Of a DNA stretch of 64,000 nt, positions 3,515-27,099 are shown piece by piece. The notes under the pieces are model-generated. The model ran no database searches. It saw only the letters and a program-made list of their open reading frames with translations, and was not told the origin of the DNA. This DNA comes from a virus: the IMG/VR virus record IMGVR_UViG_3300030329_005371, positions 1-64,000 of that record; one strand, written 5' to 3'. The translations under genes were made by a program, and so were the position numbers. The first letter of the stretch is position 1, and each line of letters begins with the position of its first letter.

Positions 3515-3537
3515 TCTCAAGTAACTCGGAGGTTATT

Positions 3538-4565: not shown

Positions 4566-4566
4566 G

Positions 4567-4921: not shown

Positions 4922-4946
4922 GTCTGAGTAGCCCAAGGAGCACACT

Positions 4947-7519: not shown

Positions 7520-7524
7520 ACAAA

Positions 7525-7710: not shown

Positions 7711-7711
7711 A

Positions 7712-7975: not shown

Positions 7976-7978
7976 TAT

Positions 7979-8251: not shown

Positions 8252-8258
8252 TTATTGC

Positions 8259-9227: not shown

Positions 9228-9247
9228 TTAAAAATGAGGGCGACATT

Positions 9248-9409
9248 TTGTTACATAAGTTTTTGGAATGGTCTGCGATCATAGGAATCCCAGTAAACAT
9301 TGGTTTGCTGGGATTTGGTGTATGGCATGATAGCACCTACTTTCAAGTTCTGTCTTTAGTGAATATTTTGCTCCTTGGGGTGATTTTTATACATAAGAAA
9401 GATAATTAA
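9248..9409 (+). CDS. Small two-pass membrane protein (53 aa), TTG start
   Basis: TTG 9248 with GAGGG about 8 nt upstream; TAA at 9407-9409. Two hydrophobic segments (WSAIIGIPVNIGLLGFGVW and VLSLVNILLLGVIFI) with a basic tail HKKDN, so it is probably a hairpin membrane protein. It lies just ahead of the secreted protease gene. Confidence 0.5.
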   Translation: MLHKFLEWSAIIGIPVNIGLLGFGVWHDSTYFQVLSLVNILLLGVIFIHKKDN

Positions 9410-9424: not shown

Positions 9425-10150
9425 ATGAGAAAGTTATTTGCTTTATTGATGGGATTGATGGTTTCGACTACGGCATTGGCGAATCCTCCCGGAGACTTCC
9501 AAACAGTATCTATTGAGGAAGGCTTAAATAAAAACGAGAAAAAGGTAAGAGAAGCCGCTGTCAAGATTACTGACGGATATGGTCATGGTTCCGGCAGCAT
9601 TATAAAATACTATGATATGCAATTGGTCTTAACCGCGCAACACGTAGCAAGTGGGCGCATAGGAAGCGAGTATCTTGTTATCAACGGCAATACCTTAGAC
9701 AAAGCCATATTGGTATACGCAGATCCGTTAAATGACATTGCTGTATTGTGGATGCGGCCCGGCAATCAATTAGAAGGAAGAGGTCTTAAATATAGCCCAA
9801 GAGAAGAGCTAGCTCCCATCGGCGCGGCAATTACTTACTCTGGGCACCCATCGTGGCACAGTTTAATGACATATCGTGGCTACGTAGCGGGCGTGGAGAC
9901 TCTTCCTGGCGCAGGGCCACAGCTTATGCTTAATACTTATGGATGGTTCGGCTGCAGTGGTTCTGTTATTTATGATACAAGTGGGAATATTGTTGGTATA
10001 CTATGGGGAGTCGATATAGAAACACGACCAGACCTTCAAGTTCAGGAAAATATGATTTGGGTCTCCCCAATTCAAAACTTAAACATGAAGCTTGCTATCA
10101 AAGAATTATGTATTGCTCTCGAAGATGAGCCTAAAGCATGTAGAAAATGA
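9425..10150 (+). CDS. Secreted trypsin-like serine protease
   Basis: A 241-aa protein with a clear signal peptide (MRKLFALLMGLMVSTTALAN, cleavage after about residue 19) and a chymotrypsin/HtrA-type catalytic triad: His73 in TAQHVA, Asp104 in LNDIAVL, Ser178 in GCSGS. It lacks a PDZ domain. It is predicted to act in the periplasm, for example on envelope proteins during infection. SD AAGGAG sits 9413-9418. It overlaps the Nudix gene by ATGA, so both are translated together although one is exported and the other is cytosolic or virion-bound. The GCSGS nucleophile loop differs from the usual G(N/D)SGG. Confidence 0.85.
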   Translation: MRKLFALLMGLMVSTTALANPPGDFQTVSIEEGLNKNEKKVREAAVKITDGYGHGSGSIIKYYDMQLVLTAQHVASGRIGSEYLVINGNTLDKAILVYADPLNDIAVLWMRPGNQLEGRGLKYSPREELAPIGAAITYSGHPSWHSLMTYRGYVAGVETLPGAGPQLMLNTYGWFGCSGSVIYDTSGNIVGILWGVDIETRPDLQVQENMIWVSPIQNLNMKLAIKELCIALEDEPKACRK

Positions 10151-10596
10151 CCAAATGGGGCAAATTTCTCACCGAAGGTGAGTTAAAAACAGTAGGAGTT
10201 GTTGTTTGTCTTAACGATAAGCAACAATTTCTTGTTATTAGGCGTTCTGATATTGATGACCGAGAGGGTCAATGGACTATACCCGGAGGCCATATTGATG
10301 AAAAAGATAGTTCTATTGAAGCAGGGGCTGTTAGGGAACTCAAAGAAGAGACAAATTTAGTCTGTAAAACGTCTGATTTAACATATTTAGGCGAACCTAA
10401 GAAAGAAAAGTTCTATTTTTTGACTCAAAAATGGTCGGGGGACGTAAAAGTGGACAAGCCCAATCCAGAAACTGGAGAAATTGAGCACGATGACTGGAAA
10501 TGGCTTACAATTGAAGAGATAAAAGAGATAGAGAATAGTGAAATTCCGATCTATTTATTGGAGAAAGCGCTTGAGATCTCCAAAAATGATGACTGA
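10147..10596 (+). CDS. Nudix hydrolase with capsid-targeting-like N-terminus
   Basis: A 149-aa Nudix protein. The Nudix box runs from GGHIDEKDSS (about 47) to RELKEETNL (63-71), with the metal-binding RExxEE intact; the first Glu of the consensus is displaced. Nudix enzymes cleave nucleoside-diphosphate-linked substrates (NDP-sugars, NADH, ADP-ribose, capped RNA); the substrate here is unknown. The N-terminus MTKWGKFLTE is a short variant of the W-x-K-(F/Y)-L-x-E leader found on the following genes, so it may be packaged and cleaved after Glu10. Coupled by ATGA to the protease gene. Confidence 0.85.
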   Translation: MTKWGKFLTEGELKTVGVVVCLNDKQQFLVIRRSDIDDREGQWTIPGGHIDEKDSSIEAGAVRELKEETNLVCKTSDLTYLGEPKKEKFYFLTQKWSGDVKVDKPNPETGEIEHDDWKWLTIEEIKEIENSEIPIYLLEKALEISKNDD

Positions 10597-13255
10597 CGAA
10601 GAAATTTTACAAAAAGCAACACTTTTACTTGAAAAAATGAGCAAAAAATCGCCAAAAAAACGCGGTTTTGGCCAAGGAACGCCTCCGAAAGGCGAATTTT
10701 ATAAAAAACAAGACATTTATCTTGAAGAAGATATCCTTCGTGAAATTTCGGACACCGAATTTAGAGGTGTTGAAGCAATTTTACAAAAAATTGCCGATAA
10801 CCCAGAGGGAGTTTTGGCTTTTGACAAACTTTTTGGCGATAAAACGCGCATTGTCATACCATTTCCCGTAAAAGATAACTCCTCGGACCTGGGCCAATGG
10901 GTTTATGAACTTGAGCAAAACTTAGAAGTTCAACCTGACTACGAAAAAGGCATGCTTTCAATAGATAGAGAGTGGGAAGACCACGATCGACCAATCGATG
11001 ACGATATGGACCGCTTGTGGGGCTCTGGAAAGCGGCCAAAAAAGATAAAAAAGAAGCTTCAAATGAAAATTGGTAGATATTTTACCAAATTAGACGAATT
11101 AGTAAAAGAATATCACGCCTTAAGAACAAAAATTGTTGAACGATCCGATGATTATATAATAGATGATATTGTAGATGTACCAGGGATGAGAATTACCACC
11201 GGAGAAGAAGAAGAACACTTAGATAAACAAGAATTAAAGAAACTTAACAAACTTCGCAATAGTTTAGAGTTGTATATGGGAGGGGCTTCCTCTGGAGGGG
11301 TGGCAAAATACATTTTAACCCCTCAACAGAAGGCGGAATGGGCAGATAATGAACAAATACGTCGAGATAGACAAGATAAAGAAGACGCGCGCCGCGGAAG
11401 ACCGGTGCGCAAAAGAAAACCAATAGTTACTCCTGATACTGGCTTTAAGATAATGGGTAATTATTGGGTAGATAACGCAAAATATGTCAAAGAAAACATA
11501 AATGATCTGGAAAATGACAAATATTCTATTATTTTAACGCGCCACCCCGTTGATGTTATGAGAATGTCAGATTTTGACAAAATAACATCTTGTCATACAC
11601 CTCCAAGTCGTACTGGAGGAGAACAAAGCTACTATAAATGCGCAGTTGCTGAAGCTCAGGGCCATGGAGCGATCGCTTATGTGGTAGAAACTGAAGAATT
11701 GCTCTCGCAAACAAACACAGGCAACATCGAAAGTGCTGAACAAGAACTTGAAGAGTACGATGAGATTTTTTCAGAGCAAAATCGCTATCTTCACGGTACT
11801 AACTTAGATTTAGACCCAGTTGCTCGAACAAGATTAAGACAACTTCGTTATTTTCGTGATTTTGACGGAAAAGAGGAGCCATATGGCAAAGAACTCGCAG
11901 TTCCCGAAAAGTTTACCTATGGTTTAGACATTCCTGGTCTTGTGAGCACAGTAACAAGATGGGCGAGAGAAAAACAAGAGAATTTGTTCGACAAACTACC
12001 AAGAAAGGATGGGAAAATTAATTTAGATAATTTCGAAATCTATGGAGGCTCTTATGAGGACACTTCTGGTGTTACTGGTCGAAAAGAGTTGATGATGAAT
12101 TTGACAAAGTTTATGAGCAGTGATTTTATAGGAGCAGTTAAACAAAACCTTGAAACCGAAAATGATATGCCTCCTGAATGGGTCGGAGACATTGGTGCGC
12201 TTCTTAAGCGTGAGTGCTCAGTGGTTACAGAAGAGTGGAATCCTAAATACGCTAATTGTAAAGTAGATTTTTATGTCAAAAATAACGGTAACAATGATTG
12301 GTATATTTATCCAGAAGGCAAGTTGATGCTTACATGGGATGTGTCAGAATGGAAGCAACTTCCTAATGTAATAGCTGGTCAAGACATTGCCGATTATTTA
12401 AACCAATCTTATTTTGACCCAGAAAATGCTTCGGGTGATCTGTTCGATGACGACAAAGGAGCAATTTATCGCGGTGGAACAGAAGAGCATCCAGAAATTG
12501 TTTGGCGTTGTGAATTTAACAACAAATTAGTGCCCGGGATGGGCGGCGAAGAGATAGTTTATGATGCAGACGGATTTAAGCATTTTTGTAAAGGCGTCGA
12601 TCAGTTGGACGACAAACGAGACACATTCCAGGCGATTGTAGAACAATTTGCCAAATCGCAAGGCTGGCTCGAAGGTCACGCTTATATGAGCTTAGCGCAG
12701 AAAATCGAGAATAACGAGATTGGCGCCTATGAATGGGATGTAGAATACGACAAAGAGCATTATACTGAGTCATACGAAGCATGGGCTACAATATCTTATG
12801 ATTTTGATCCCGAAGAATTGGGAATTGAGCCAAGGATTTTGTTTGATCTCGTAGATCGTAGAGAGTTTGCGCTTCGTCTTAGGGGATACTTAACTGCGCA
12901 GGCTAGAGAAGACACAGGCGGCGAATATTGGCTCTCTATACGCGATAAGAGCGCAGTAGAAGTTGGAGGCGAAGTTCGCTATAGTATAACTTTTAAAGTA
13001 GACGCAGACACCCCTGATGACCTTGTGGCGCAGTTTTATGAACTGGTTACGGGAGAGATGGATGATGAAGACGAAATTGCGAAGGCATTTATGGGCGCTT
13101 TACGAGAAGAAGCAGCAAAAAATGGCGTTAAACTTAGCAGGTCGAGTCCGGGGTCCGAAAAAGCTCGCGACTTTGATGCGCTTCAAGATCTAGGCGAGAA
13201 CAAACAATACAATGCTGACTATTTAGTTAAAACGTGGAAGAGGTTTATTCTATGA
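10586..13255 (+). CDS. Large hypothetical protein (about 890 aa)
   Basis: A very large acidic protein starting MMTDEEILQKATLLLEKM at 10586 or 10589, inside the Nudix gene end. It has Lys-rich N-terminal segments, a Cys/His-containing motif (ITSCHTPPSR ... YYKCAVAEAQGHGAIAYVV, near residues 335-370) and several alpha/beta stretches towards the C-terminus. I do not recognise the family. Size and position among capsid-targeted genes suggest a virion protein (inference). The C-terminus ends ...YLVKTWKRFIL, a match to the W-(R/K)-x-(F/Y)-L leader seen at the N-termini of its neighbours. It overlaps the next gene by ATGA. Confidence 0.75.
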   Translation: MMTDEEILQKATLLLEKMSKKSPKKRGFGQGTPPKGEFYKKQDIYLEEDILREISDTEFRGVEAILQKIADNPEGVLAFDKLFGDKTRIVIPFPVKDNSSDLGQWVYELEQNLEVQPDYEKGMLSIDREWEDHDRPIDDDMDRLWGSGKRPKKIKKKLQMKIGRYFTKLDELVKEYHALRTKIVERSDDYIIDDIVDVPGMRITTGEEEEHLDKQELKKLNKLRNSLELYMGGASSGGVAKYILTPQQKAEWADNEQIRRDRQDKEDARRGRPVRKRKPIVTPDTGFKIMGNYWVDNAKYVKENINDLENDKYSIILTRHPVDVMRMSDFDKITSCHTPPSRTGGEQSYYKCAVAEAQGHGAIAYVVETEELLSQTNTGNIESAEQELEEYDEIFSEQNRYLHGTNLDLDPVARTRLRQLRYFRDFDGKEEPYGKELAVPEKFTYGLDIPGLVSTVTRWAREKQENLFDKLPRKDGKINLDNFEIYGGSYEDTSGVTGRKELMMNLTKFMSSDFIGAVKQNLETENDMPPEWVGDIGALLKRECSVVTEEWNPKYANCKVDFYVKNNGNNDWYIYPEGKLMLTWDVSEWKQLPNVIAGQDIADYLNQSYFDPENASGDLFDDDKGAIYRGGTEEHPEIVWRCEFNNKLVPGMGGEEIVYDADGFKHFCKGVDQLDDKRDTFQAIVEQFAKSQGWLEGHAYMSLAQKIENNEIGAYEWDVEYDKEHYTESYEAWATISYDFDPEELGIEPRILFDLVDRREFALRLRGYLTAQAREDTGGEYWLSIRDKSAVEVGGEVRYSITFKVDADTPDDLVAQFYELVTGEMDDEDEIAKAFMGALREEAAKNGVKLSRSSPGSEKARDFDALQDLGENKQYNADYLVKTWKRFIL

Positions 13256-14001
13256 GTGATAAGATGTTAATGGAAAATTGGCGGAAGTATTTGCTGGAAA
13301 GTCCGAGATACGGGGAGGCTTCTGTAGTCGACATTTCACCAGAGGCGCGCCGTCAGGCTTTTCAGCGACAGCAAGCGGGCGCAGATGTTCAGTCTTTTAG
13401 CGATGCTTTGGCATCAATTTATGGTGATGAAGAACCATCAGATCCGTGGTCTGATCGTGAGGATTATGAAGCAGGCGACACAGAACTCGCAGAGCGGACG
13501 ACCGGCCCAACTGTTGCAGAATTTCTACAATTTTTACGAAATACAACTCAGCGAGAGAAAGCAAAAGGAATATCGTCTGACTTATTGGATTTTGCGACAG
13601 GTGTTATAACTGGTGGTTATGAAAAGTTTATTCAGGCTGCTGCTAAAGCTGCGCATGATGATAAATCTATTTTAAAAGGTGATTATAAAGATAATCCTTA
13701 TTTAGCCTATATTGATTTTGATCCAAAGTATGAACAGATACTAAGGCCACAAATTTTTGATAATTTTCTAGAAGATCTTCCAAACGCTTTGGGTGCACTT
13801 TCAAAAAATTCGGTAATGCCCGATCTTGACGAACTATTACGAAGATATGTTCTTGCTAACTATGATATATCCCTTCCGAAAGTAGCTCGTGCATCAGAAG
13901 ACTGGAGCTTAGTAGGATGGGAATATCGCCGTGGAAAATTTAATGAATCCAAATTCCACGACAACTGGCGCAACTTTCTGCTCACCGAGGAAAAGTTATG
14001 A
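13252..14001 (+). CDS. Capsid-targeted-type protein, unknown cargo (249 aa)
   Basis: Starts MSDKMLMENWRKYLLE at 13252 (ATGA overlap), carrying the full leader motif with a possible (L)-x-E cleavage after Glu16. The body is acidic and mostly helical with no enzyme motif. The C-terminus ends HDNWRNFLLTEEKL, a second copy of the leader-like motif including L-x-E. A longer reading from 13234 would add six residues before the leader and is not favoured. Probably a virion-internal protein (inference). Confidence 0.75.
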   Translation: MSDKMLMENWRKYLLESPRYGEASVVDISPEARRQAFQRQQAGADVQSFSDALASIYGDEEPSDPWSDREDYEAGDTELAERTTGPTVAEFLQFLRNTTQREKAKGISSDLLDFATGVITGGYEKFIQAAAKAAHDDKSILKGDYKDNPYLAYIDFDPKYEQILRPQIFDNFLEDLPNALGALSKNSVMPDLDELLRRYVLANYDISLPKVARASEDWSLVGWEYRRGKFNESKFHDNWRNFLLTEEKL

Positions 14002-14744
14002 AGCTCCTAATAGAGGGCTGGCGCAAATTCTTAAAAGAAGAAAAGCTTATTAAGGAAGACATGGGCGATTACTACGACACGCTTTCTGAAGATGACCTTT
14101 ACGATCTTGACATTGAAGAATTGTTGGACCTGAGAGATTTTATCGAAGACTTTGGTGGGCCCGGGCCACAGAGCGACCCAAAGGATTTATACCCTACTAT
14201 TATGGCTCGCATTGAAGCGATTGAGGACGAAGAAGATCATGCGCCTCCACCAGACCGCAAAATCGAAGGTCTTTATGACGGTGAGTTTGCTATGAGGCTG
14301 CTGAAGGCATTTTTCTCCAGTGCCAACTCGGGCATTGAACTCGCATCGATGATACCCGGAGCAGAAAGTCTGTCAGAAGAGTTTAGTCGTATCCGAGGTC
14401 ATGTCGTAAGATTGGTTGAATATGCAGAAGACGGTAATGACTATCCATGGTTGACTATTGATGAAACTGAGGAGCACCCAGATGTGTTGACCAACGATGT
14501 ACGAATGCTGCTTATACAGATGATAGGCACTGCGTTTGAGGGAGAGATGGACGAGGAACAAAAAGAAGTTATATCCGGGTATCACAATTGGATTGATTCT
14601 ATGCACAATCTTAAGGACTATGCTTCTTATGACCTACACGGGAAAAAAAAGGCTGGGTATCCTCCGTCGCGCGCGGCTTCTGGAATGTATAAGAGATACG
14701 AATATGCTTACGAATTTCTTAAAGATTGGGTAGGTGGCGAATGA
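13998..14744 (+). CDS. Capsid-targeted-type protein, unknown cargo (248 aa)
   Basis: Leader MKLLIEGWRKFLKE (cleavage possible after Glu14), then a very acidic body rich in Asp/Glu with helical segments and a hydrophobic helix near 95-125 (LLKAFFSSANSGIELASMI). No enzymatic motif seen. ATGA overlaps on both sides show tight translational coupling in the cargo operon. Confidence 0.75.
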   Translation: MKLLIEGWRKFLKEEKLIKEDMGDYYDTLSEDDLYDLDIEELLDLRDFIEDFGGPGPQSDPKDLYPTIMARIEAIEDEEDHAPPPDRKIEGLYDGEFAMRLLKAFFSSANSGIELASMIPGAESLSEEFSRIRGHVVRLVEYAEDGNDYPWLTIDETEEHPDVLTNDVRMLLIQMIGTAFEGEMDEEQKEVISGYHNWIDSMHNLKDYASYDLHGKKKAGYPPSRAASGMYKRYEYAYEFLKDWVGGE

Positions 14745-15379
14745 AACTCTTAATGGAAAATTGGCGGAAGTTCATCTCAGAGGGCATGAAAACTGTCGAT
14801 GATCTTGTGAGCTTTGTGGATGAAGAATATCCAGAATATCAAACCGACTTATATGTTCGCATCCGCAAGGAGGATGACGGCCCCGGTATTGACTTTACTT
14901 ATGCTTTTATTGATGAAAGCGGAGAAGTTCTTGATCTCGGCTGGAATGATGCTTTTGATGGTAAAGTTACAATCGTGCCGGCGTGGGAGCTTCCTGACGA
15001 TGGTCCTTGCGCAGGAGCATATCAAGTCAAATGGGCCTCTGCGAAACGTGGGTGGGGACCATTGCTTTATGATGTGGCAATGGAATATGCTACAATGCAC
15101 GGAAATGGTCTTATTGCGGATCGTGAAGAAGTTTCAGATCAAGCGCGACCGATCTGGGATTATTATTTAAGCAATCGCGGAGATGTTAAAAGTCACCAGC
15201 TTGATGACAAACACAATACACTAACGCCAGATGTAGAAAAGGACAATTGTGATCAGTATATTGCTAGTCTTGGAGGCAAATACAACTGGCAAGAAAACGC
15301 TCTAAGTAAAAGATACACAAAAGAGCCTACAACTATGGCCGAACTAGAAAAATTAGGGAGGCTTATGAACGAGACATGA
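14741..15379 (+). CDS. Capsid-targeted GNAT-like acetyltransferase
   Basis: Leader MKLLMENWRKFISE, then an alpha/beta domain of about 190 aa. The segment KRGWGPLLYDVAMEYATMHG followed by GLIADREEVSDQARPIWDYY resembles the acetyl-CoA-binding loop-helix and following strand-helix of GNAT-type N-acetyltransferases. If injected it could modify a host protein or small molecule early in infection (inference). The start at 14741 is set by the leader and the ATGA overlap; an upstream reading from 14726 is not favoured. Confidence 0.7.
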   Translation: MKLLMENWRKFISEGMKTVDDLVSFVDEEYPEYQTDLYVRIRKEDDGPGIDFTYAFIDESGEVLDLGWNDAFDGKVTIVPAWELPDDGPCAGAYQVKWASAKRGWGPLLYDVAMEYATMHGNGLIADREEVSDQARPIWDYYLSNRGDVKSHQLDDKHNTLTPDVEKDNCDQYIASLGGKYNWQENALSKRYTKEPTTMAELEKLGRLMNET

Positions 15380-16392
15380 AACTCTTAATGGAAAATTGGC
15401 GGAAGTATTTGACGGAAGATATTACTGTCGATCTAGAAGGCCCTACCGGCGCCATGCCGCCGCATCTGCTTCGCAAGCAAAAACGACAAAAAGACGCGCA
15501 AGATCTATTAAAATCTATGGGATTTTCTGTTCACAGAGAACTTGGTAGAGGCGCCTTTGGTGTAGTATATGAAGTTGAGAATAGCACAACAGGCGAGCGC
15601 TCGGCGGCTAAAGTTGTGTCAGATGAAAGTACGCGCGAGATAGAAAACTACAAGTTTGCTATGGAAGAAAAAGCTTTTATGCCAGAAAAATACGCTAAGT
15701 ATCTTCCCAATGTTAAACAGCTTATAACTGGTGGCGGAAGCACTATAATTTTAATGGAATTGCTTGAACCACTTGATCCGCAAACAGCGCAAGAGCTTTT
15801 CGCAGCACAAGATGCCCCCACTGTATCGAAAAAAACAGAAAGAATCTTAAAAAATCCCGAAGCAGTAGCCGAGATAGTCGAGAAAGCCATAGAACACAAT
15901 ACAATTTTAGATCAAATAAGATTAACTCCAGAACAATATTCAGAAATTACGAGTGTTGCCGTAAACGCGGCGACTCAATCACCACATTCAGATGCTGACG
16001 AGCTAATAAATACGATCTATGGTGCCGTAGTAGGAACGTCTACTTTTCAAAGCGTTGTGGGGAAGGCATTCGTCCCTGCGACCTCTATAGCTTTTGAGAA
16101 GGCGTTAAAAGATACTATTCTATATTATTTTGATAAACAAATTGTTCCCGTTCACCAGCCAAAGCCCGGTGACGAAGAGTCTGATCGCGGATACTGGACT
16201 GGACCCTCTCTTGAAAAAGTAGAAGGCATGTTTCCAGAAGCAGAAGGCTTAATGAGTGCGATGAAATATTTTATGCAAGATAAAGGGTGGCGGCCGAAAG
16301 ATGTACATATAAAGAATGTTATGCGTAGACCAGATACTAAAGATTTCGTTATTGTAGATCTCGGACTATTTAAAAGAGGTATATACCAATAA
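15376..16392 (+). CDS. Capsid-targeted protein-kinase-like protein
   Basis: Leader MKLLMENWRKYLTE, then a kinase-like fold. The glycine-rich loop is LGRGAFGVVYEV (56-67) with Lys79 in AAKVV and an ILMELL hinge-like strand. Near the C-terminus are a catalytic-loop equivalent, DVHIKN (Asp309, Asn314, spaced as in kinases), and a metal-binding DLG at 328-330. About 130 helical residues sit between hinge and catalytic loop, and the chain stops 8 residues after DLG, so the usual C-lobe after the activation loop is absent. The key ATP- and metal-binding residues are present, so activity is plausible. Cargo of the packaged set; targets unknown. Confidence 0.8.
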   Translation: MKLLMENWRKYLTEDITVDLEGPTGAMPPHLLRKQKRQKDAQDLLKSMGFSVHRELGRGAFGVVYEVENSTTGERSAAKVVSDESTREIENYKFAMEEKAFMPEKYAKYLPNVKQLITGGGSTIILMELLEPLDPQTAQELFAAQDAPTVSKKTERILKNPEAVAEIVEKAIEHNTILDQIRLTPEQYSEITSVAVNAATQSPHSDADELINTIYGAVVGTSTFQSVVGKAFVPATSIAFEKALKDTILYYFDKQIVPVHQPKPGDEESDRGYWTGPSLEKVEGMFPEAEGLMSAMKYFMQDKGWRPKDVHIKNVMRRPDTKDFVIVDLGLFKRGIYQ

Positions 16393-16409
16393 TAATGGGA
16401 GACAAATAA

Positions 16410-18530: not shown

Positions 18531-18537
18531 TAATTAA

Positions 18538-18951
18538 ATGGAACTTATCTCGACCCATTTTTGTAAAGCCGCTAATGTTGGCTATCATGGAAATTTATTT
18601 GGCGGGACGATGTTATCGTGGCTAGATGAGGCGGGAGCTATCTTTGCTTGCCAAGCTTGCGATACTCCACGAATGGTAACTAAAAAAATATCAGAAGTAG
18701 TTTTTAATAAACCTGTAAGGCCCGGGCAGATTATTAAGATTTATGGTGAAGTTAAATCTGTGGGGAATCGTTCTATAATAGTTCGTCTAGAGGCTCGCAG
18801 GCATAGTGTCTATAATGGCTCTCAGCGAACTGTACTTACAACAGACATGACGTTTGTTCGTATTGATGGAGATGGAGAAGCAATTCCCATTAGCGATAAA
18901 GTAAAAACAAAATATAACCTTGCGGGAGAACACAATGAAACTACTACTTGA
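18538..18951 (+). CDS. Hotdog-fold acyl-CoA thioesterase
   Basis: A 137-aa protein of the YciA/ACOT-type hotdog thioesterases: HGNLFGGTMLSWLDEAGAIFA holds the conserved N-x-x-G-G-x-x-(hydrophobic)-x-W-x-D signature with the catalytic Asp, followed by the long beta strands of the fold. It hydrolyses acyl-CoA thioesters in the cytoplasm; the chain-length preference cannot be read. It sits between the fibre gene and a packaged-type gene and overlaps the latter by 17 nt. No capsid leader. Confidence 0.82.
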   Translation: MELISTHFCKAANVGYHGNLFGGTMLSWLDEAGAIFACQACDTPRMVTKKISEVVFNKPVRPGQIIKIYGEVKSVGNRSIIVRLEARRHSVYNGSQRTVLTTDMTFVRIDGDGEAIPISDKVKTKYNLAGEHNETTT

Positions 18952-19387
18952 AAATTGGCGAAAGTATATAAATGAAGTTGCTATGGGTCATGACATGGCA
19001 AAGTCCATTGAGTATACGGGATTTGTTTTAGACGAAGTTTCGCATCAAAAACTAGCACAGCTAGCGCCCGAAGGTTGGAAAGTTTTTGCGCATCACATGA
19101 CAATGATCCCGCCGACAGAACAAAAACAACGTTTGCCCTCCGATCAGTTTTATGAAGGGTGTTTAACTGTCACCGGAATCGCTCAAAACGACCGCGTTGT
19201 TGCTGTAAGGGTTGACAGCGAGAGCCAAAACCTGTATAATAAGATTGAAGGCCTTCCACATGTTACTATTGCTACAAACCCGGAAGCCGGCGGAAAACCC
19301 GCAATGTCTAATGAATTTTCAGAGCAAGACTTTCAGCCCATTGATCCTATTGAGATTTGTGGAATAGTGGAAGAAGTCTTAAGATGA
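18935..19387 (+). CDS. Capsid-targeted 2H-phosphoesterase-like protein
   Basis: Leader MKLLLENWRKYINE, then about 135 residues with two HxT motifs, HMT (54-56) and HVT (109-111), the hallmark pair of the 2H phosphoesterase superfamily that acts on 2'-3'-cyclic, 2'-5' and cyclic-oligonucleotide phosphodiesters. The opening strand YTGFVLDEVSHQKL fits the family's first strand-helix. T4 gp57B (Acb1), an anti-CBASS nuclease, belongs to this superfamily, so signal degradation is an attractive guess, but only the motif pair supports it here. ATG 18935 is chosen because it opens the leader; it overlaps the thioesterase end. Confidence 0.7.
   Translation: MKLLLENWRKYINEVAMGHDMAKSIEYTGFVLDEVSHQKLAQLAPEGWKVFAHHMTMIPPTEQKQRLPSDQFYEGCLTVTGIAQNDRVVAVRVDSESQNLYNKIEGLPHVTIATNPEAGGKPAMSNEFSEQDFQPIDPIEICGIVEEVLR
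19212..19240 (+). promoter_or_regulatory. Consensus sigma70-type promoter inside a coding region
   Basis: TTGACA (19212-19217), a 17-nt spacer, TATAAT (19235-19240): a perfect consensus located within the 2H-like gene. It could give separate expression of the genes from 19384 onward. A chance match is possible because the bases also encode conserved protein. Confidence 0.45.
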
Positions 19388-19596
19388 AGCTCCTACTAGA
19401 AAATTGGCGCCAGTTCTTAACGGAATCAACAATTCAAAATGCCTTGTTGGCTTTTATGTTAAATATGAGAGATCATGAAAAAAAGAGACCCGCGGATGTT
19501 AAAGCATTGAACGATAAAGAATTATTGCGATATATTAAAACTCACAATCATATGATAGACAATAATGAGTTATTTAATTTTATAAGAAGTTTATAA
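19384..19596 (+). CDS. Small capsid-targeted-type protein (70 aa)
   Basis: Leader MKLLLENWRQFLTE, then only about 56 residues: a basic, helical mini-domain (AFMLNMRDHEKKRPADVKAL ... ELFNFIRSL). The start codon overlaps the previous stop by ATGA; the last base of its stop is the first base of the next start (TAATG). Function unknown. A short cargo like this resembles the small T4 internal proteins. Confidence 0.72.
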   Translation: MKLLLENWRQFLTESTIQNALLAFMLNMRDHEKKRPADVKALNDKELLRYIKTHNHMIDNNELFNFIRSL

Positions 19597-20183
19597 TGAA
19601 ACTCCTACTTGAAAATTGGCGGAAGTATCTTAAAGAACAAGAAGGGCAATACCAAATCTATTGTGACATGGATGGAGTGCTCGTTGATTTTGTTGCGGGA
19701 ACTGTAGAGCATATCACTAAACAACTACAAGCAGGCGAGGCCGAAGAGTTAAAGGAAAGGATCGGCAGAGATTATGTAACCGAAGAAGACATTCATTACA
19801 GCAATCCAAATAAAAATAAGCACATTCGAGCTTACATGTTTGAAGAACTTGAACATCACGCAGAGTTTTGGGAGAATCTCCCATGGATGCCAGGAGGAAA
19901 GGAATTGTGGAATTTTATTTCTCAATTTAATCCTTATATTCTGACGGCGCCCATGGGATATGGTTCCGAAATAGGAAAACAAGCTTGGATTGATAAAAAT
20001 TTACAACCACCACCTTCGAAGGTTTTTATGTCGCACGATAAGTTTAAATGGGCGGCACCAAATCATATTTTAATTGATGACTTCACAAAAAACACAGTTC
20101 CGTGGGAAAAAGAAGGAGGAATAGCGATTCTTCATACCGATGTTGGGGTTACGATTAAAAAGCTTGAAGAGCTTGGGCTTTAA
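19596..20183 (+). CDS. Capsid-targeted HAD-family phosphatase (5'-nucleotidase-like)
   Basis: Leader MKLLLENWRKYLKE, then a HAD hydrolase. Motif I is CDMDGVLVDF (catalytic Asp24 and Asp26), motif II is in YILTAPMGYG, and motif IV is HILIDDF. The arrangement resembles small 5'(3')-deoxyribonucleotidase-like HADs, which dephosphorylate nucleotides. About 181 residues remain after predicted cleavage. Packaging would put the enzyme in the cell at the moment of DNA entry. Substrate not determinable from sequence. Confidence 0.8.
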   Translation: MKLLLENWRKYLKEQEGQYQIYCDMDGVLVDFVAGTVEHITKQLQAGEAEELKERIGRDYVTEEDIHYSNPNKNKHIRAYMFEELEHHAEFWENLPWMPGGKELWNFISQFNPYILTAPMGYGSEIGKQAWIDKNLQPPPSKVFMSHDKFKWAAPNHILIDDFTKNTVPWEKEGGIAILHTDVGVTIKKLEELGL

Positions 20184-20206
20184 GCCTACTTATAAGTAGG
20201 AGGCTT
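20182..20206 (+). promoter_or_regulatory. Hairpin that covers a ribosome-binding site
   Basis: AAGCCTACTTA pairs with TAAGTAGG and GGCTT immediately after the HAD gene. The stem contains the AGGAGG that would serve the gene at 20211, so the structure could act as a weak terminator or hide the ribosome site. Only three T residues follow, so a strong terminator is unlikely. Confidence 0.45.
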
Positions 20207-20210
20207 TATC

Positions 20211-20531
20211 ATGCCAAATGATCAAGGATGGGAAACATACTCTAAGTTAGTGATACAACAGTTAGAAACTCTTAGTGCTGGTATTGAGAGCATGCGAGTA
20301 GAATTACAGCTCGTAAAAGAGCAGATTACAAAAATTAAAGCGAAAGAGGATCGCTTAGAAGAGTTAAAAGCCTGGAAGGATAAAATAGACGAGGTTGCCT
20401 CCCCATCACAAATGAAATATGCGTTAAGGGAATTAGAAAACTTAAGAACATTTAAGACAAAAGCTGTTACAATATTCGCAGTAGTTCAGTTTGCGATGGG
20501 AATTTCTTTAGCTATAATTGGTTTGTTATAA
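20211..20531 (+). CDS. Coiled-coil protein with C-terminal membrane anchor (106 aa)
   Basis: Residues 10-80 form a long charged helix with heptad character, and residues 84-106 are a transmembrane tail (VTIFAVVQFAMGISLAIIGLL). A tail-anchored coiled coil facing the cytoplasm. Function unknown; the AGGAGG site is inside the preceding hairpin. Confidence 0.65.
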   Translation: MPNDQGWETYSKLVIQQLETLSAGIESMRVELQLVKEQITKIKAKEDRLEELKAWKDKIDEVASPSQMKYALRELENLRTFKTKAVTIFAVVQFAMGISLAIIGLL

Positions 20532-20548
20532 ACTGCCTATTTACTTTG

Positions 20549-20839
20549 ATGGCGCAAAAAACTAATCCTACAACTGATCTGGTAAAAAGAATAATGAAGC
20601 AAATCTCCGGTAATTTAACCGAAGAAGATGAGCTGATTCCAGAAGTTGCTATTGATGGCTCGGGAGAAATATGGTGTTGGGATCCAACAAATCGATGTCA
20701 TCGTAAATTATATCGCGGTGTAAAAGCTTTTATTTTATATGAAAATTATGATAATTTTGGAAGAACTTTAATTTATACACACGCCGGCGATATGATATGT
20801 ATCGACCCAGAGGAATTATTACACACAGGATATGATTGA
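20549..20839 (+). CDS. Hypothetical protein (96 aa)
   Basis: Starts MAQKTNPTTDLVKRIMKQI at ATG 20549 (a TTG three bases earlier is less likely). The C-terminal half has several aromatic beta strands (EIWCWDP ... AFILYENYDNFGRTLIYTHAG). No family recognised. Its stop overlaps the next start (TGATG). Confidence 0.55.
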   Translation: MAQKTNPTTDLVKRIMKQISGNLTEEDELIPEVAIDGSGEIWCWDPTNRCHRKLYRGVKAFILYENYDNFGRTLIYTHAGDMICIDPEELLHTGYD

Positions 20840-20976
20840 TGTTATTTAAATTTGGCAAGTTTTGGCAAACAGCCGCTCTCGTTTTGGGAGCTTGGATTTT
20901 TTATGGTATTTGGGACTTTGAATTTACAGTTATTACACTTTTAGCATGGATTCTCGCACTTAAGCTATATGATTAA
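20839..20976 (+). CDS. Small two-pass membrane protein (45 aa)
   Basis: ATG 20839 to TAA 20976. Two hydrophobic segments (TAALVLGAWIFYGIW and FTVITLLAWILALKL) separated by an acidic turn, with a short basic N-terminus, so an N-in hairpin is likely. Coupled to the previous gene by a TGATG overlap. Too short for most gene finders; unknown role. Confidence 0.5.
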   Translation: MLFKFGKFWQTAALVLGAWIFYGIWDFEFTVITLLAWILALKLYD

Positions 20977-21175
20977 TAAAATGACGAGAAAAAAGAAAAA
21001 AATAGTTCAACGAATTAACGAAGTAGAAATCATTAATCGACGGACACGCAAATATAGAAAAATTAACCTGAAAGAAAAGGAAATTATTGTCTTTAATGAG
21101 GATCTTAAGGAATTTCAGCTATTACCACCCCTTAGTGCTAGTTATGAGGAAACCAGTGAGCCTTGCAATGGATGA
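20969..21175 (+). CDS. Very basic small protein (68 aa)
   Basis: A Lys/Arg-rich N-terminal half (MTRKKKKIVQRI ... RRTRKYRK) and a mixed C-terminal part. Could bind nucleic acid (inference). The start is ambiguous between 20969 and 20981. It overlaps both neighbours by 8 nt. Confidence 0.45.
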   Translation: MINKMTRKKKKIVQRINEVEIINRRTRKYRKINLKEKEIIVFNEDLKEFQLLPPLSASYEETSEPCNG

Positions 21176-21434
21176 AAAAAACACTTTTGGTGAGCTTATA
21201 GCGAAAACCTTCGATATTGGAGATATTGTTGAGTGGTCGACATGGAATAGAGAGAATAATGATTGGGATTCACATTATGGAATTGTTGTGGAAATAAAAA
21301 ACGAATTCCGCTCCAGTAGATTGGTATCAATTTCTACTGTGAAGCCTGTAAATGACGCGTCAATAGAAATAGATTTCTTTACTGCTAGTTTAAAGCTTGT
21401 TTCTAAGTCAAATTCAACGGATAAAATACAATGA
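21168..21434 (+). CDS. Small SH3-like barrel protein
   Basis: An 88-aa protein with IGDIVEWSTW, then YGIVVEI, then strands (RLVSISTVKPV): the recurrent barrel pattern. ATG 21168 is chosen; the frame opens further upstream in the previous gene. It overlaps the VOC gene start. Confidence 0.55.
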   Translation: MDEKNTFGELIAKTFDIGDIVEWSTWNRENNDWDSHYGIVVEIKNEFRSSRLVSISTVKPVNDASIEIDFFTASLKLVSKSNSTDKIQ

Positions 21435-21772
21435 TGTCAGTTATTGACCACATTGCCATACTTGTAGACGATTTAGAGGTCGCAGAAGAGTGGTATACCG
21501 GAAAATTAGCCGGAAAAGTGACTTTTCGCGACTCAAAGTATATTAGAATGACTGTTTCGAACACAAATATCGCTTTAATTGATAAAAATCACTATCCATA
21601 CGCACATTTTGGTATTTTAGTCGAAAAAAAGGAAGATTTGCCGTTAGAAATGGGCGAAGTGGTCTATCATCGCGATGGAACGACTGGGGTTTACGTAAAA
21701 GACCCATTTGGAAACTATTTAGAGTATATTTGCTACTGCGATGAAGAAAAAGAGGTATTTTTAAGTGATTGA
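21431..21772 (+). CDS. VOC (glyoxalase/dioxygenase-fold) protein
   Basis: A 113-aa single vicinal-oxygen-chelate domain: VIDHIAILVDDLEVAEEWY at the start, HFGILVEKK in the middle and VYVKDPFGNYLEYICY at the end, the classic beta-alpha-beta-beta-beta halves. VOC proteins include glyoxalases, dioxygenases and antibiotic-resistance (fosfomycin, bleomycin) proteins. His7, His59 and Glu102 could form a metal site. Substrate unknown. Start ATG 21431 or 21434; it overlaps the next gene by 8 nt. Confidence 0.8.
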   Translation: MMSVIDHIAILVDDLEVAEEWYTGKLAGKVTFRDSKYIRMTVSNTNIALIDKNHYPYAHFGILVEKKEDLPLEMGEVVYHRDGTTGVYVKDPFGNYLEYICYCDEEKEVFLSD

Positions 21773-22781
21773 CGTTTTAAAAGGCTTAATTAGACAATTT
21801 ATGCCGTTTGCGCAAGAAAAAATGGGCTTTGATCGACCTCCTAAGCTATTTTTGCGTGATGATCCGCAAAATGCGGCAAATCCGCTTGGAAAAACCGGTT
21901 TTTATGACCCAGAAGCCGAATCTGTCACTTTATACACTACTGGACGTCACCCAAAGGACATTATGCGCTCTTTGGCGCACGAATTGATGCATCATACGCA
22001 AAAATGTAATGGAGACTTTGACAATGTGACAACTATGGGCGAAGAAGGCTATGCGCAGAGCGATCCGCACATGAGAACGATGGAAATTCAAGCATACCAA
22101 GCATCTATTGTGTTTAGAGATTGGGAAGACAGTACAAAAGGTACTATTTACTACGAACATTTACAAAAAGGAGATAAAAGTTCAATGTCTACAAAAAATT
22201 GGAAAAACGGGGAATTAAAAAGTCTCCTGAGTGAAGCCTGGGGTTTTAAGATGGATCTCAGTAATTTTGGAAAGCTGGAGGAATATTCTGCTTCAGGCGT
22301 TGATCGCGGGCCCGGCGATGATCCAGAGGAAGAGAAAGAAGCCAAGCAAGAAACTGAAGGTGAAGAAACAAGCAAGCGCGAAGAAGAGGGGCTTGATGAA
22401 GCACATGATAAAGATTGGGGCATGGGTAAAGACGAAGATTCTCGTACCCGTCCCGGAGAGAAGGATTATACTGGGCACAAAGGTGATGAGTCTCACACCC
22501 ATCCCGGCGAAGAAGATTATGAAGGTGGCGCTGAGCGTCCTGAAGATCTCGCGCAAGAGTTAATGGACTTAGCGCAACGAATGAGTGATGCTGTAGGCGC
22601 TTCAGATGAAGTTGAAGAACTTGAAGAGGGAGAAGGCGATCGAGGAGATAAAGATCGCGAGCAAGGTAGGGACGCAGGAAGAGAGCACCGTGCTGATTCT
22701 AGCGGCAAAGGCGTAAGCGAAGCACAAGTCCGTCGCATCATTGCCAAGGTTCTTAAAGAAAGACGCAAGAAAGGAAAATAA
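21765..22781 (+). CDS. Zinc metallopeptidase fused to a scaffold-like acidic domain
   Basis: GTG-started 338-aa protein. Residues 1-135 form a compact domain with AHELMHH (HExxH at 72-76), a downstream EIQAY Glu candidate for the third ligand, and DPEAESVTLY before it: a metallopeptidase layout. Residues 141-338 are quite different, being acidic, charged and disordered-to-helical and ending KVLKERRKKGK, like a prohead core protein. Between them lies AAGGAG (22168-22173) followed by an in-frame ATG at 22185, so the second half may also be made separately. A protease with an overlapping scaffold would parallel lambda C/Nu3 (inference). Confidence 0.72.
   Translation: MIDVLKGLIRQFMPFAQEKMGFDRPPKLFLRDDPQNAANPLGKTGFYDPEAESVTLYTTGRHPKDIMRSLAHELMHHTQKCNGDFDNVTTMGEEGYAQSDPHMRTMEIQAYQASIVFRDWEDSTKGTIYYEHLQKGDKSSMSTKNWKNGELKSLLSEAWGFKMDLSNFGKLEEYSASGVDRGPGDDPEEEKEAKQETEGEETSKREEEGLDEAHDKDWGMGKDEDSRTRPGEKDYTGHKGDESHTHPGEEDYEGGAERPEDLAQELMDLAQRMSDAVGASDEVEELEEGEGDRGDKDREQGRDAGREHRADSSGKGVSEAQVRRIIAKVLKERRKKGK
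22168..22187 (+). promoter_or_regulatory. Internal ribosome site and in-frame ATG
   Basis: AAGGAG at 22168-22173, an 11-nt spacer and ATG at 22185, in frame within the metallopeptidase gene (codon 141). The product would begin MSTKNWKNGELKSLLSE and be about 198 aa, acidic and helical. The spacing is slightly long for an SD. Confidence 0.45.
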
Positions 22782-22784
22782 ATC

Positions 22785-24842
22785 ATGGGTGGTGCCGCTG
22801 GGCATATGAATCACCCATTCGATTTAGATTGGGTTAAAAGCGGTTCTGACCTCTTAGATTTTTTCAATCGAGCCAAAGCCTTTGTTGAAGAAGCAAGAGG
22901 AGGGAGCGTCAAGATTGACGGCGTAAACGTGTCTTTTAAGGTGGTAGAGACGCCTAATGGGCATGAGTTTGCTGTCGACCGTGGCTCTATGAAAGAAATT
23001 GACATTAGCGGAATTACCGTTGATAGATTTGCTGAAAGATTTCCGCCTGGACACGGTATGCGCAGATTTGTTGCGCAACTTTTAACCATTCTTAATGCTG
23101 CTCTCGGCGATGTAGAGCCAGAACTTAAAGCTCTGGGTATGTGGGATGATCCATCCATGTTCCTTAACACTGAATATGTTGAAGGTAAAACTAACGTAAC
23201 TCAATACGATGAGAACTTTCTTGCTATTCATGGTTTAAATCAATTCTATCAACGCGTAGCAAAGTCAGGCGCCAGTAAAGGAAATGTTCGGCCCGGCGCG
23301 GAGCGTCCAACAATGGTCAATCCTAAAAACGGCAAAGAAGTCCCTATTAAAGATCCTAGCCGAGAAGTTTCCTATGACCCAGCAGTCATGGCTCGTTTGA
23401 TTGAAAAATTGCGCCCTTACGGAGAAGAATATGGATTTCAGATTTATGGTGATGTTCCGACAGAAACTATGGCAGACGTAGATTATACCGGTGCTTTATC
23501 GGAGCCTTTATCTATTAAAATCTCCGATGATCGAACAATTAAAAAATCTCTAGGCGAGTGGCTCCAAGAAGCACAAAATCCTGGCTATAGAACCTTGAAA
23601 GTCCGCATACAAGACGGTGACTCGGAACGAATGATGAGTTGGCACCCTCTCCACAAAGATCTTTATAAAGCACTTTCTAGCGGAGAACATGCGGTTGTTG
23701 ATATGGTAGACGAACAAGACGCCGCAGATGCCATTTATGGCACCGTATTTATGCACGCCGCACGAATGCTTGGAAATGAAATGTTAAGGGCCTTAACCAG
23801 CCCTATGGGTGATGTAATCAACCACGAAGGAGTTGTGCTCCGAGACGAGGAAACATTCGGTACCACCAAACCTGTTAAAATTACAGGCGAGTTTATTGTC
23901 GGCGGAACGGCATCCGATTTTCAGAAAGCGAGTGGGGCCCCAGTTATTATGAAAGAGCAAGAAGAAGACGAAGATCCCGTTGTTGATATCGAATTTGAAG
24001 ATGAGCCAGTACAAGGCGAAACAGTCGCGATTGTTCCTGGCGCTTTCAAGCCCCCGCATATGGGACATCTAGATATGGTTGAAAGATATACTCAAGACGC
24101 CGATCGAGTTGTCGTTTTGATCTCTGCTCCTACTAAAAGTGGTAGAAAGTTACCAAATGGTCGGGAAATTACAGCAGAAGATTCAGAAAAGATTTGGAAT
24201 CTATTTGTAGGTTCCAATCCAAAAGTAGAAGTTTATAAATCCTCTCATGCTTCCCCGATTAATGCTGCCTATGAGATAATTGGCAAAAGTGGTTTGCGCG
24301 AAAAGGTTGCTGAAAATATGGGCATGGATCCGATCAGCGCGGGAGACACAGTTATTTTAGGCGCCAGCAATAAAGGCGGCGATGCTGCCAGATGGACAGG
24401 TGCTGAAAAATACGTGGGAGAAGATTTGAATCTGGTTCCACCGATGGAGAGCGCTGTTGAGCCTTTAAACCGCCCTAACGGAGAGCCATTTAGCGCCACA
24501 GATATGAGAAATCTTTTAGGAGATATTCTCGCCAACAAAGAAGCATTACAAGATTTCGCTGGTGACAACGTTGATGGTGTTTTACAAATTTTAGGCGTAC
24601 AAGGCCTAGAAGAAATGTCAAGTGCCGGCGGCTCTGGAGGACGCTCCAGTTCAGTCCAGGGCGCCGTGGCGTCAGGGGGCGGACCATGGCAACATAGTAA
24701 TATTAAAAAAGATAACGAAGAAGAAAAAGAGCGCTCTAGACTTGTCACAAGAGGTCCATTATCTCCGAAAAAAGAAAATATTGATTTAAGCACGGTTGAT
24801 GAAGTTATGAGACTAATTATGGAAAGAGGCATTCTACAATGA
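22785..24842 (+). CDS. Ligase-type nucleotidyltransferase fused to HxGH nucleotidylyltransferase
   Basis: A 685-aa protein in two enzyme-like halves. The N-terminal half has VKIDGVN (KxDG at 43-46; Lys43 would be the AMP/GMP-carrying residue), then HEGVVLRD (motif IV-like, about 347-354) and PVKITGEFI (motif V-like), the order seen in polynucleotide ligases and capping enzymes. After an acidic linker (about 385-410) comes VPGAFKPPHMGH (HxGH, about 416-427) with an FSATDMR element further on (ISSTxxR equivalent), as in NMN/phosphopantetheine/CTP-type adenylyl- or cytidylyltransferases. Neither substrate can be read from sequence. It sits between the scaffold-like gene and another helical protein, overlapping the next gene by ATGA. 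Confidence 0.72.
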   Translation: MGGAAGHMNHPFDLDWVKSGSDLLDFFNRAKAFVEEARGGSVKIDGVNVSFKVVETPNGHEFAVDRGSMKEIDISGITVDRFAERFPPGHGMRRFVAQLLTILNAALGDVEPELKALGMWDDPSMFLNTEYVEGKTNVTQYDENFLAIHGLNQFYQRVAKSGASKGNVRPGAERPTMVNPKNGKEVPIKDPSREVSYDPAVMARLIEKLRPYGEEYGFQIYGDVPTETMADVDYTGALSEPLSIKISDDRTIKKSLGEWLQEAQNPGYRTLKVRIQDGDSERMMSWHPLHKDLYKALSSGEHAVVDMVDEQDAADAIYGTVFMHAARMLGNEMLRALTSPMGDVINHEGVVLRDEETFGTTKPVKITGEFIVGGTASDFQKASGAPVIMKEQEEDEDPVVDIEFEDEPVQGETVAIVPGAFKPPHMGHLDMVERYTQDADRVVVLISAPTKSGRKLPNGREITAEDSEKIWNLFVGSNPKVEVYKSSHASPINAAYEIIGKSGLREKVAENMGMDPISAGDTVILGASNKGGDAARWTGAEKYVGEDLNLVPPMESAVEPLNRPNGEPFSATDMRNLLGDILANKEALQDFAGDNVDGVLQILGVQGLEEMSSAGGSGGRSSSVQGAVASGGGPWQHSNIKKDNEEEKERSRLVTRGPLSPKKENIDLSTVDEVMRLIMERGILQ

Positions 24843-25630
24843 ATAAAGATGAACGAATCTTAAGAGAAAATATACGCCAATTAATTCGGCATGTCAAGCA
24901 AAAAAGAATAGATGAAGAACAACAGATTCGCGAATCGTTGAAAAAACTAATGAGGCTTGAGCTTCAAGCAATGTTAAATGAAGCAGATGTCCCTGATGTC
25001 GATCCTACCCCTAACAAATCTACAGGAATTAATGTTTTAGAGCAGTTGCTGAAAAAAATTGTTCCTGTGTTACAAACTGATTATAAATCTCTCACAACTT
25101 CTGAAGAGCAAAGACGATCTTTTAGAGCACATATTGTTAATGCGTGCATCAACACTCTTACGCCGGCTAAAGTTAACAACCAAGCAGGAGAAGAAGAGGC
25201 AGAGTCTCTAGATGAAGAAATTGATGTTGAAATCGGAGGAGGCGATGACGACAAGTTTATTGATATTCGTACTGATGCCGAAAAGAAAGCCGAAGAAGAA
25301 GAACAAGCGCCAGATGAGCGTGAAGAGTTTGGTTCTGGGGTAGATGGCGATGAAACCGGCCGCAATATGGCTTACGAAAGTTTCAAAAAGATTGAATCAA
25401 GTGTAATCGATTCTTATGAACTGCTTTCTAACCCCGAAGATCAAGAAGTTTTTTATGATTATCTAATTGCTAATCTCAAGCTTTATTTTGATAAGTTTGA
25501 AAGTGAGTTAGCCGACACTGTTGAAGAGCCCACAAACCAAGCTTATGATACGGCGAAAGAAGAAGAACCTGCTGAAGAAGGTGGGGGCCTTGATTTAGGC
25601 GGAGAAGAAGAGTTAGAAATTGAACTATGA
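24839..25630 (+). CDS. Acidic helical protein, possible prohead core component (263 aa)
   Basis: A charged N-terminal helix (ILRENIRQLIRHVKQKRIDE), a central block of Glu/Asp runs, and a helical region around 175-225 (YESFKKIESSVIDSYELL ... YLIANLKLYFDKFE), then an acidic tail. Low in aromatic residues apart from that helix. Composition and position beside the metallopeptidase/scaffold and capsid-targeted genes suggest a core or scaffold protein (inference). ATGA overlaps on both sides. Confidence 0.65.
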   Translation: MNKDERILRENIRQLIRHVKQKRIDEEQQIRESLKKLMRLELQAMLNEADVPDVDPTPNKSTGINVLEQLLKKIVPVLQTDYKSLTTSEEQRRSFRAHIVNACINTLTPAKVNNQAGEEEAESLDEEIDVEIGGGDDDKFIDIRTDAEKKAEEEEQAPDEREEFGSGVDGDETGRNMAYESFKKIESSVIDSYELLSNPEDQEVFYDYLIANLKLYFDKFESELADTVEEPTNQAYDTAKEEEPAEEGGGLDLGGEEELEIEL

Positions 25631-27099
25631 AGCTCTTAATGGAAAATTGGCGCAAGTTCGTTGCAGAGACCGAACCAACTAAAAACTGCGGCGATTTATA
25701 CCTTTTTGAAAACGATTCTATCCAGAAAGCTTCTTTTTACGATAGATTCTTGACTCTTAATGAAAACGATGACGATTTTGAGCTTTTTCTTGAACAATGG
25801 GAAAAATCTGTTGATTATCAATTAGGTTTATTATCTGAAGGAATTCGAGATGATCGCGGCCGCACATGGACGTCGAAAGACGAAGCAGAGCCGGGGGAAG
25901 CTTTTAGATGGGGCTCCAATGCTGAATGGAAAGGGCGTAAGCTAACACCTGAAGATATGGGTCTCACTCAGCAAGAGGCTGATTATCTAGAAGATTTCAG
26001 AGAGAAATTTCTTGCTGCTAGAGGAACACCTCAACATCCTTATAAAGATCCTGTCGCAGACGAACTTCTTAAAAAATCAAACCAACATATGGCAATGAGT
26101 AGCCTTATACCGTTTTTTACCCAAGGCTACATGCTATTGCAGCGTGGAGGACAAGCAGTTGGCAAAGTTTTATCAGTGGCTAACAAATTAAAACAAAATA
26201 TGGAAAAAAAAGGCCTCCTAGGAAAAGTTGGTGCGGTGGCTTTAACGGGGCTTGTTGCTAGCGCCACTTTAATAGGTATTAAGGCTATTATGGATTCGGG
26301 CGGCGATGCTGGAGAAGTGGCTCAAAAAGCTTCAGAGCTAGCAGATGCCGCGGCAGTAGTGGAGCCGGATGTCGGACAAGCGCTTGAACAAGCAACACAA
26401 AATCCTGAATCTGCGGCAGAAGTGTTAGGTAAGCTTGAACAAGCTGCAGAACAAACTACTCAGCAATTAAGTCAGGTAGACAATGAGGCTGTTAAACAAG
26501 TTGCGCAAGAAGCTGAAAAATCTTCGCAGCAATATTCCGGAATAGATGATTTTTCGCAGATGTTTGAGGATTCGTTGCGTCAAGATAGAACCGGATCCGA
26601 CGCAGAAATCGCACAACAAGCAGCAGACTCCACGCAGGCTATGCCGGCTGAAGAAGTTCAAGAATGGATCGACTACTGGGGTACCTATAGAGATGGACGT
26701 CCAACATACATGAATACTGTGGAACAGGGCTGGGCTTATAATTCTGGATTGGAAGATTTTACGTCTTTTCAAGATAGTTACGGGATCGGATTACCAGAAA
26801 ATATGGAATCAGGAAATTTGTCAAAACGAGATATGAGATCTTTAGTGCGTGATTTTATACGTACAGATTATCCTGGTATTATGGAATACCAAGAATCCGA
26901 CCCAAGCGCCAGCTGGATGTTCGATGACTATGTAAATCATTATTTAGGTCTAGGAGAAGAAGAAGCATCAAAGTTTCGCAAGATGTTTAACGATGGCGCT
27001 TGGAGGCGACGACCGTACGGAGGAGGAGGGCTGCGAGGGGGTCGTCCAGGTCCAATTGGACGGGGTACCCCTGTAGATTTTACGTTTGGTGAGTATTGA
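25627..27099 (+). CDS. Large capsid-targeted-type protein with hydrophobic segment (490 aa)
   Basis: Leader MKLLMENWRKFVAE (cleavage candidate after Glu14), then an acidic region, a hydrophobic membrane-capable segment (VGAVALTGLVASATLIGIKAIM, about 198-219), an Ala/Gln-rich coiled region (about 230-315), and a Gly/Arg-rich tail. The combination (packaged leader plus hydrophobic segment plus coiled coil) would fit a protein ejected with DNA that helps form a passage through the envelope, but this is inference. It is the last gene of the cargo run. Confidence 0.72.
   Translation: MKLLMENWRKFVAETEPTKNCGDLYLFENDSIQKASFYDRFLTLNENDDDFELFLEQWEKSVDYQLGLLSEGIRDDRGRTWTSKDEAEPGEAFRWGSNAEWKGRKLTPEDMGLTQQEADYLEDFREKFLAARGTPQHPYKDPVADELLKKSNQHMAMSSLIPFFTQGYMLLQRGGQAVGKVLSVANKLKQNMEKKGLLGKVGAVALTGLVASATLIGIKAIMDSGGDAGEVAQKASELADAAAVVEPDVGQALEQATQNPESAAEVLGKLEQAAEQTTQQLSQVDNEAVKQVAQEAEKSSQQYSGIDDFSQMFEDSLRQDRTGSDAEIAQQAADSTQAMPAEEVQEWIDYWGTYRDGRPTYMNTVEQGWAYNSGLEDFTSFQDSYGIGLPENMESGNLSKRDMRSLVRDFIRTDYPGIMEYQESDPSASWMFDDYVNHYLGLGEEEASKFRKMFNDGAWRRRPYGGGGLRGGRPGPIGRGTPVDFTFGEY

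Follow-up and report, generated by a model that had tools for sequence, protein, structure and literature searches.

The question raised by this locus is why a series of phage proteins with unrelated bodies should begin with nearly the same short sequence. The window, that is the whole stretch of 64,000 nucleotides analysed here, comprises bases 1-64000 of the IMG/VR record IMGVR_UViG_3300030329_005371, a fragment of 102,630 bases whose tail part bears a resemblance to T4-like phages by reading. A sequence-only reading had taken the shared start for a capsid-targeting leader cut by a protease of the gp21 type. Our analysis suggests that the leader very probably belongs to a capsid-targeting system of the T4 type with an unusually large and exchangeable cargo.

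Leaders and terminal tags in the window

All eight leaders listed in the sequence-only reading, at 13252, 13998, 14741, 15376, 18935, 19384, 19596 and 25627, were found at exactly these starts, on the + strand like the Nudix leader and the C-terminal tags described in this section. The gene at 13252..14001 encodes a 249-aa protein with no convincing family in Pfam or PHROGs, whose leader, MSDKMLMENWRKYLLE, has three extra residues and which ends in a second copy of the tag, KFHDNWRNFLLTEEKL (13951..13998). It is followed by the leaders MKLLIEGWRKFLKE (13998..14039; gene 13998-14744, 248 aa, unknown) and MKLLMENWRKFISE (14741..14782; gene 14741-15379, 212 aa); the structure model of the 212-aa protein is of low confidence and has no significant match. 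The leader MKLLMENWRKYLTE (15376..15417) precedes a protein-kinase-like protein of 338 aa (gene 15376-16392), MKLLLENWRKYINE (18935..18976) a phosphodiesterase-like protein of 150 aa with a tRNA_lig_CPD assignment (gene 18935-19387), and MKLLLENWRQFLTE (19384..19425) a protein of 70 aa (gene 19384-19596) that clusters with the kinase family of 15376, perhaps through chaining. The remaining two leaders are MKLLLENWRKYLKE (19596..19637), in front of an NT5C-type 5'-nucleotidase of 195 aa (gene 19596-20183), and MKLLMENWRKFVAE (25627..25668), in front of a 490-aa protein that is unknown (gene 25627-27099). Several leader genes overlap the stop codon of the preceding gene with their start, in an operon-like manner. 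Late promoters of the T4 type (TATAAATA) were looked for in front of the leader genes; none was found, and the search gave nothing useful.

A Nudix protein beginning MTKWGKFLTE (10147..10176; gene 10147-10596) had also been counted among the leader proteins. Its leader is real and KWxxFLTE is conserved in close homologues, but it represents a shorter variant, K/S/Q-W-x-x-F/Y-L-T/S-E, and not the canonical form; the NUDIX domain begins at residue 15 (E 5e-22).

The tag also occurs at C-termini, a location that the sequence-only reading had overlooked both in the 249-aa protein and in a 905-aa open reading frame ending YLVKTWKRFIL. This frame had been listed from GTG 10538; the ATG at 10586, where the homologues begin, is more likely the true start and would give a protein of 889 aa (10586..13255). 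The protein has no N-terminal leader and carries the C-terminal tag YNADYLVKTWKRFIL (13208..13252) with L-G-E upstream. In an AlphaFold2 model, the body ends at about residue 845 and is followed by a disordered linker and then by a terminal helix, which is the tag. A comparison of the body fold gave no significant match among solved structures, only an unnamed viral prediction, A0A516LC34. Nearly all homologues with an intact end have the C-terminal tag, and some are tagged at both ends.

Other parts of the window hold features of a different kind. The genes within bases 1-5000 resemble, by reading, those for a MoxR-type ATPase and a VWA-type protein; the first 4 kb have 57% GC versus about 40% downstream, and DNA homologous to the first 5000 bases is present in contigs L005, L049, L054 and L082. 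A phage-borne tmRNA gene with the tag ANNNTHFEAARLAA lies at 27647-27983, and homologous DNA (74-85%) was found in the related contigs L015, L024, L070, L097 and L112. Between 41100 and 62700 there is a long series of glycosyltransferase-, sugar epimerase-, methyltransferase- and sulfotransferase-like genes, recognised by reading only.

Spread of the motif and its cleavage register

Using the strict motif W[RK]x[FYW][LIVM]x(1-2)E, with the first 25 residues defined as N-terminal and composition-shuffled proteins as control, we found eight N-terminal, no interior and two C-terminal matches in the 102.6-kb record, against 0.02, 0.17 and 0.045 in the shuffled proteins. A C-terminal match at 34100-34609 is probably due to chance. 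Two large relatives (205 and 203 kb) have 7 and 10 N-terminal and 0 and 1 interior matches, respectively. In the collected loci the N-terminal motif occurs 296 times against 2.7 in shuffled proteins, a biased comparison because these loci were picked for the leader. C-terminal tags, which were not selected for in collecting the loci, number 35 against 2.6 expected from shuffling. A chance origin of the tag, at either terminus, was excluded by these shuffled-protein counts.

The sequence-only reading had proposed a search for the leader in related genomes, and this search enlarged the observation considerably. With a degenerate DNA pattern, no fewer than 119 viral contig stretches were found to contain the leader, and a similar pattern applied to 257 Gb of bacterial and archaeal contigs gave one leader contig. 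A cellular origin was rejected on the basis of this single match, whose contig bears several leader genes and phage-like content. The leader is thus essentially restricted to viral contigs. From the record and related contigs, 278 different leader proteins were gathered, which fall into 104 clusters of bodies unrelated by BLAST, 64 of them singletons, so that the bodies are, as had been claimed, broadly unrelated to one another. Pfam domains were found in a minority of the leader proteins (NUDIX, protein kinase, GNAT, AAA/zeta-toxin-like kinase, HD, exonuclease, HAD and NT5C); most bodies are unknown by Pfam. A 1053-aa kinase-like protein (L119:6575-9736) has two tandem leader-like motifs at its start, WKSFLAE and WKAFLEE.

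No cultured carrier was found by tblastn with a 28-aa double leader against 50,697 phage records, a search in which weak matches would be missed, and the 889-aa protein likewise gave no match in the search for cultured carriers. The isolates with the nearest capsid proteins are Flavobacterium phage immuto, Microcystis phage Mel-JY01 and Rhodothermus phage RM378; the MKLLxENWR form is absent from the examined parts of all three, and immuto has other FLxE starts close to its head genes. No mention of the leader motif was found in the open-licence articles consulted.

When one sequence from each cluster is aligned, W8 and E14 are the sole invariant residues, which is partly a matter of choice since the collecting pattern demanded W and E. 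We describe the cleavage register from a set of 247 leaders that was gathered without requiring Glu and whose members are not all independent, some coming from related phages. In 224 of the 247, Glu lies at W+6 and L, I, V or M at W+4. In 18 others Glu is shifted to W+7, and 16 of these 18 gain L or I at W+5, restoring (L/I)-x-E, versus one of the 224 canonical leaders (p=6e-22). Five leaders have Glu at neither position, and the residue between L/I and E varies freely (N, K, T, A among others). Such a retained register is expected from a protease specific for (L/I)-x-E and not from a plain helix. These sequence data support the view that the leader would be trimmed by a protease of this specificity.

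Among the leader-carrying records, all 11 that reach 130 kb encode a gp21-family (S77) protease, as do 3 of 13 shorter ones. For the large records this goes against a refuting case named in the sequence-only reading, a leader found mainly in genomes without a gp21-type protease. Since the phages are T4-like and the protease would be expected anyway, this co-occurrence is a passed test and not independent proof. Close to their own start the S77 proteins contain the segment L-T-E; W-x-x-T-G-L-L-E-G, LLE and LLRE occur in the N-terminal part of the capsid proteins. These segments fit an L-x-E specificity, and they match the pattern of T4, where gp23, gp24 and gp21 itself are substrates of gp21 (PMC9958956). 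T4 gp23 has LLNKWKPLLEG, a stretch of the capsid protein that the leader may mimic. In addition, the gene directly after the S77 protease begins with the motif in 4 of 13 inspected genomes (G006, G012, G021 and G022), and in G012 and G022 a gene just before the protease does so as well. In the 102,630-base record with the window, a fragment, no S77 protease gene was found and no head genes were seen on reading. The proposal of a capsid-targeting leader cleaved by a gp21-type protease stands as the best explanation on the strength of the register, the viral confinement and the S77 co-occurrence, with the qualification that this record is without the protease gene. At C-termini, (L/I/V)-x-E lies at most 17 residues upstream in 18 of 30 tags, against a background of 26%, and is absent in the other 12, so that a cut on the body side of the C-terminal tag is possible but less sure.

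A second N-terminal sequence, MKITKxxLxxIIxEEL, starts many unrelated genes of these phages (61 within the first 25 residues versus 1.4 in shuffled proteins), with sites at 7247-7519 of the window and in L048, L035, L059 and others. One body family has the W-leader in some phages and the second leader in sisters (L021, L058 and L015 versus L162), and in G008 and G019 the slot after the S77 protease is occupied by the second leader. These findings suggest, rather than prove, that the second tag may do the same job as the W-leader.

Gene exchange at the leader DNA

Codon usage in the leader was analysed in 86 genes, one per unrelated body family. L3 is CTC in 46 of 84 cases (background 10%), L4 is CTA in 48 of 78 (12%), L5 is CTT in 40 of 40 (24%) and E6 is GAA in 84 of 86 (67%), while the codons of L12 and E14 are closer to background. 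This fixation holds alike in low-GC and high-GC contigs. Furthermore, homology between related contigs ends inside leaders at 86 of 503 breakpoints versus 8.3 expected; other gene starts account for 141 of the 503 ends versus 49.4 expected. L013 and L018 differ by the presence or absence of a pair of leader genes (7284-9393), both junctions of which lie within the 42-base leader. In the window, the cassette from one leader to the next (18935..19424) has 80% identity with L078:5144-5633. This shared gene, the breakpoints and the L013-L018 difference together make gene exchange at the leader DNA well supported, and an additional constraint from the mRNA start may also act on the leader DNA. In L024 (2249-2599), compared with the L058 homologue near 2429, the leader is fused into the body and the cleavage site is lost, which looks like a recombination scar left by an apparent deletion between ENWR and EDWR.

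Candidate capsid targeting, its alternatives and known systems

In the T4-type capsid-targeting reading, the leader would form a short amphipathic helix (MKLLxENWRKY) by which each freshly synthesised cargo protein would dock to the core of the prohead. Once the shell is closed, the gp21-family (S77) protease would cut after the Glu of (L/I/V)-x-E and free the body inside the head. The body would then leave the head together with the DNA and be active soon after entry into the next host cell. In a second layout the protein bears the same tag at its C-terminal end, and (L/I/V)-x-E often lies on the side facing the body. The predicted cargo would comprise Nudix, kinase-like, nucleotidase, phosphodiesterase, acetyltransferase and small-molecule-kinase domains as well as many unknowns, and it would be exchangeable because the leader DNA of about 40 nt is nearly constant and the recombination joins fall within it. 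It is docking, packaging, cutting, injection and the effector role that we infer here.

The tag could also recruit proteins into the prohead core and be cleaved there, with bodies that serve as assembly or core proteins and are degraded or kept in the head instead of being injected. The position of leader genes next to the S77 protease, where the core and scaffold genes of T4 lie, agrees with this, as do a conserved leader family of about 84 aa that looks like a small core protein and the fate of T4 gp22, gp67 and gp68, which are degraded and not injected (PMC9958956). However, most bodies are variable and unrelated and some have enzyme domains, unlike conserved core proteins, and T4 injects its internal proteins that carry leaders of this kind (PMC12373910). 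We consider this explanation unlikely.

Because the choice of codons 3-6 in the 86 unrelated genes is far more uniform than codon bias would explain, and breakpoints concentrate in leaders, the conserved unit might be the DNA or the mRNA start, as a recombination joint, a translation start or a regulator site, and the peptide might have no targeting role. Yet the shift of L-x-E with its register is a feature of the protein at a place where the codons are near background, W8 is invariant in the set, and the tag occurs also at C-termini, where a role in translation start is impossible, all of which makes this reading very improbable. Slightly less probable still is that the tag attaches proteins to some other assembly of the phage or host, such as the membrane or a replication or transcription complex, and that L-x-E is coincidental: amphipathic helices can in general bind membranes or other partners, but the L-x-E register survives an insertion and the gp21-type protease is present in every one of the 11 large records.

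Within the capsid-targeting reading, a broader form in which delivery is open-ended is quite possible and is put forward tentatively. Any gene that lands behind the leader cassette of about 40 nt would become virion cargo, the leader would be address tag and swap joint at once, the tag could stand at either end and be cut off on the side of the body, and LxxIIxEEL would be a second, interchangeable type that sister phages use for the same body.

The closest known counterpart is the capsid-targeting sequence of T4 IPI-III and Alt, which is cut by gp21; as here, a short N-terminal leader ending in aromatic-(L/I)-x-E precedes unrelated bodies in a genome with a gp21-family protease. The T4 controls ipII and ipIII start with MKTYQEFIAE and gp24 with MAKINELLRE. 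Only aromatic-(L/I)-x-E is common to the present leader and the T4 sequence, which are otherwise unalignable, so that the leader would work like the T4 signal and is not its sequence homologue. It differs from the T4 signal in its invariant Trp and its C-terminal copies, in the number of cargo families (about a hundred in the clade) and of canonical leader genes (eight in this fragment), and in its DNA, which is conserved at synonymous sites and used as an exchange joint. The T4 internal proteins are variable accessory proteins that are injected (PMC12373910, PMC9958956), which the present proteins would resemble. Taken together, the T-even phages encode ten or more internal proteins that have just the leader in common, and Ip1-3, which have no similarity otherwise, inhibit different GmrSD enzymes (PMC12373910). 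The statement that the present set goes well beyond T4 is thus right in scale, but the principle was already known. The polymorphic ip loci of T-even phages are likewise hypervariable cassettes with a common packaging leader (PMC12373910); unlike them, the cassettes here have recognisable enzyme domains and stand serially in one gene cluster, in many phages.

In phage P1, antirestriction (Dar) proteins are carried in the head, and an N-terminal segment of about 30 residues of DarB suffices to bring a reporter into the capsid; the signal was demonstrated for this one protein, and the part of the source consulted reports no W/L-x-E motif (PMC9024508). In phiKZ-like giant phages such as SPN3US, many head proteins are cut after x-x-E by a prohead protease and ejection proteins lie in the head, but the propeptides are mostly longer than 100 residues and no common short tag is described (PMC5694885). 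New here are the C-terminal version of the tag, the location of leader genes next to the gene for the protease, and leader DNA that is conserved at synonymous sites and marks homology breakpoints.

If the capsid-targeting reading is true, a single short motif would suffice to tell, from the sequence, what a large group of uncultivated T4-like phages carry in their virions. Its rules would be testable, namely a cut after (L/I)-x-E, a tag at either end and cargo swapped at the leader, and new short targeting tags for protein packaging would become available besides the T4 sequence. About a hundred mostly uncharacterised families would then probably be active during the initial minutes of infection, and some of them might counter host defences.
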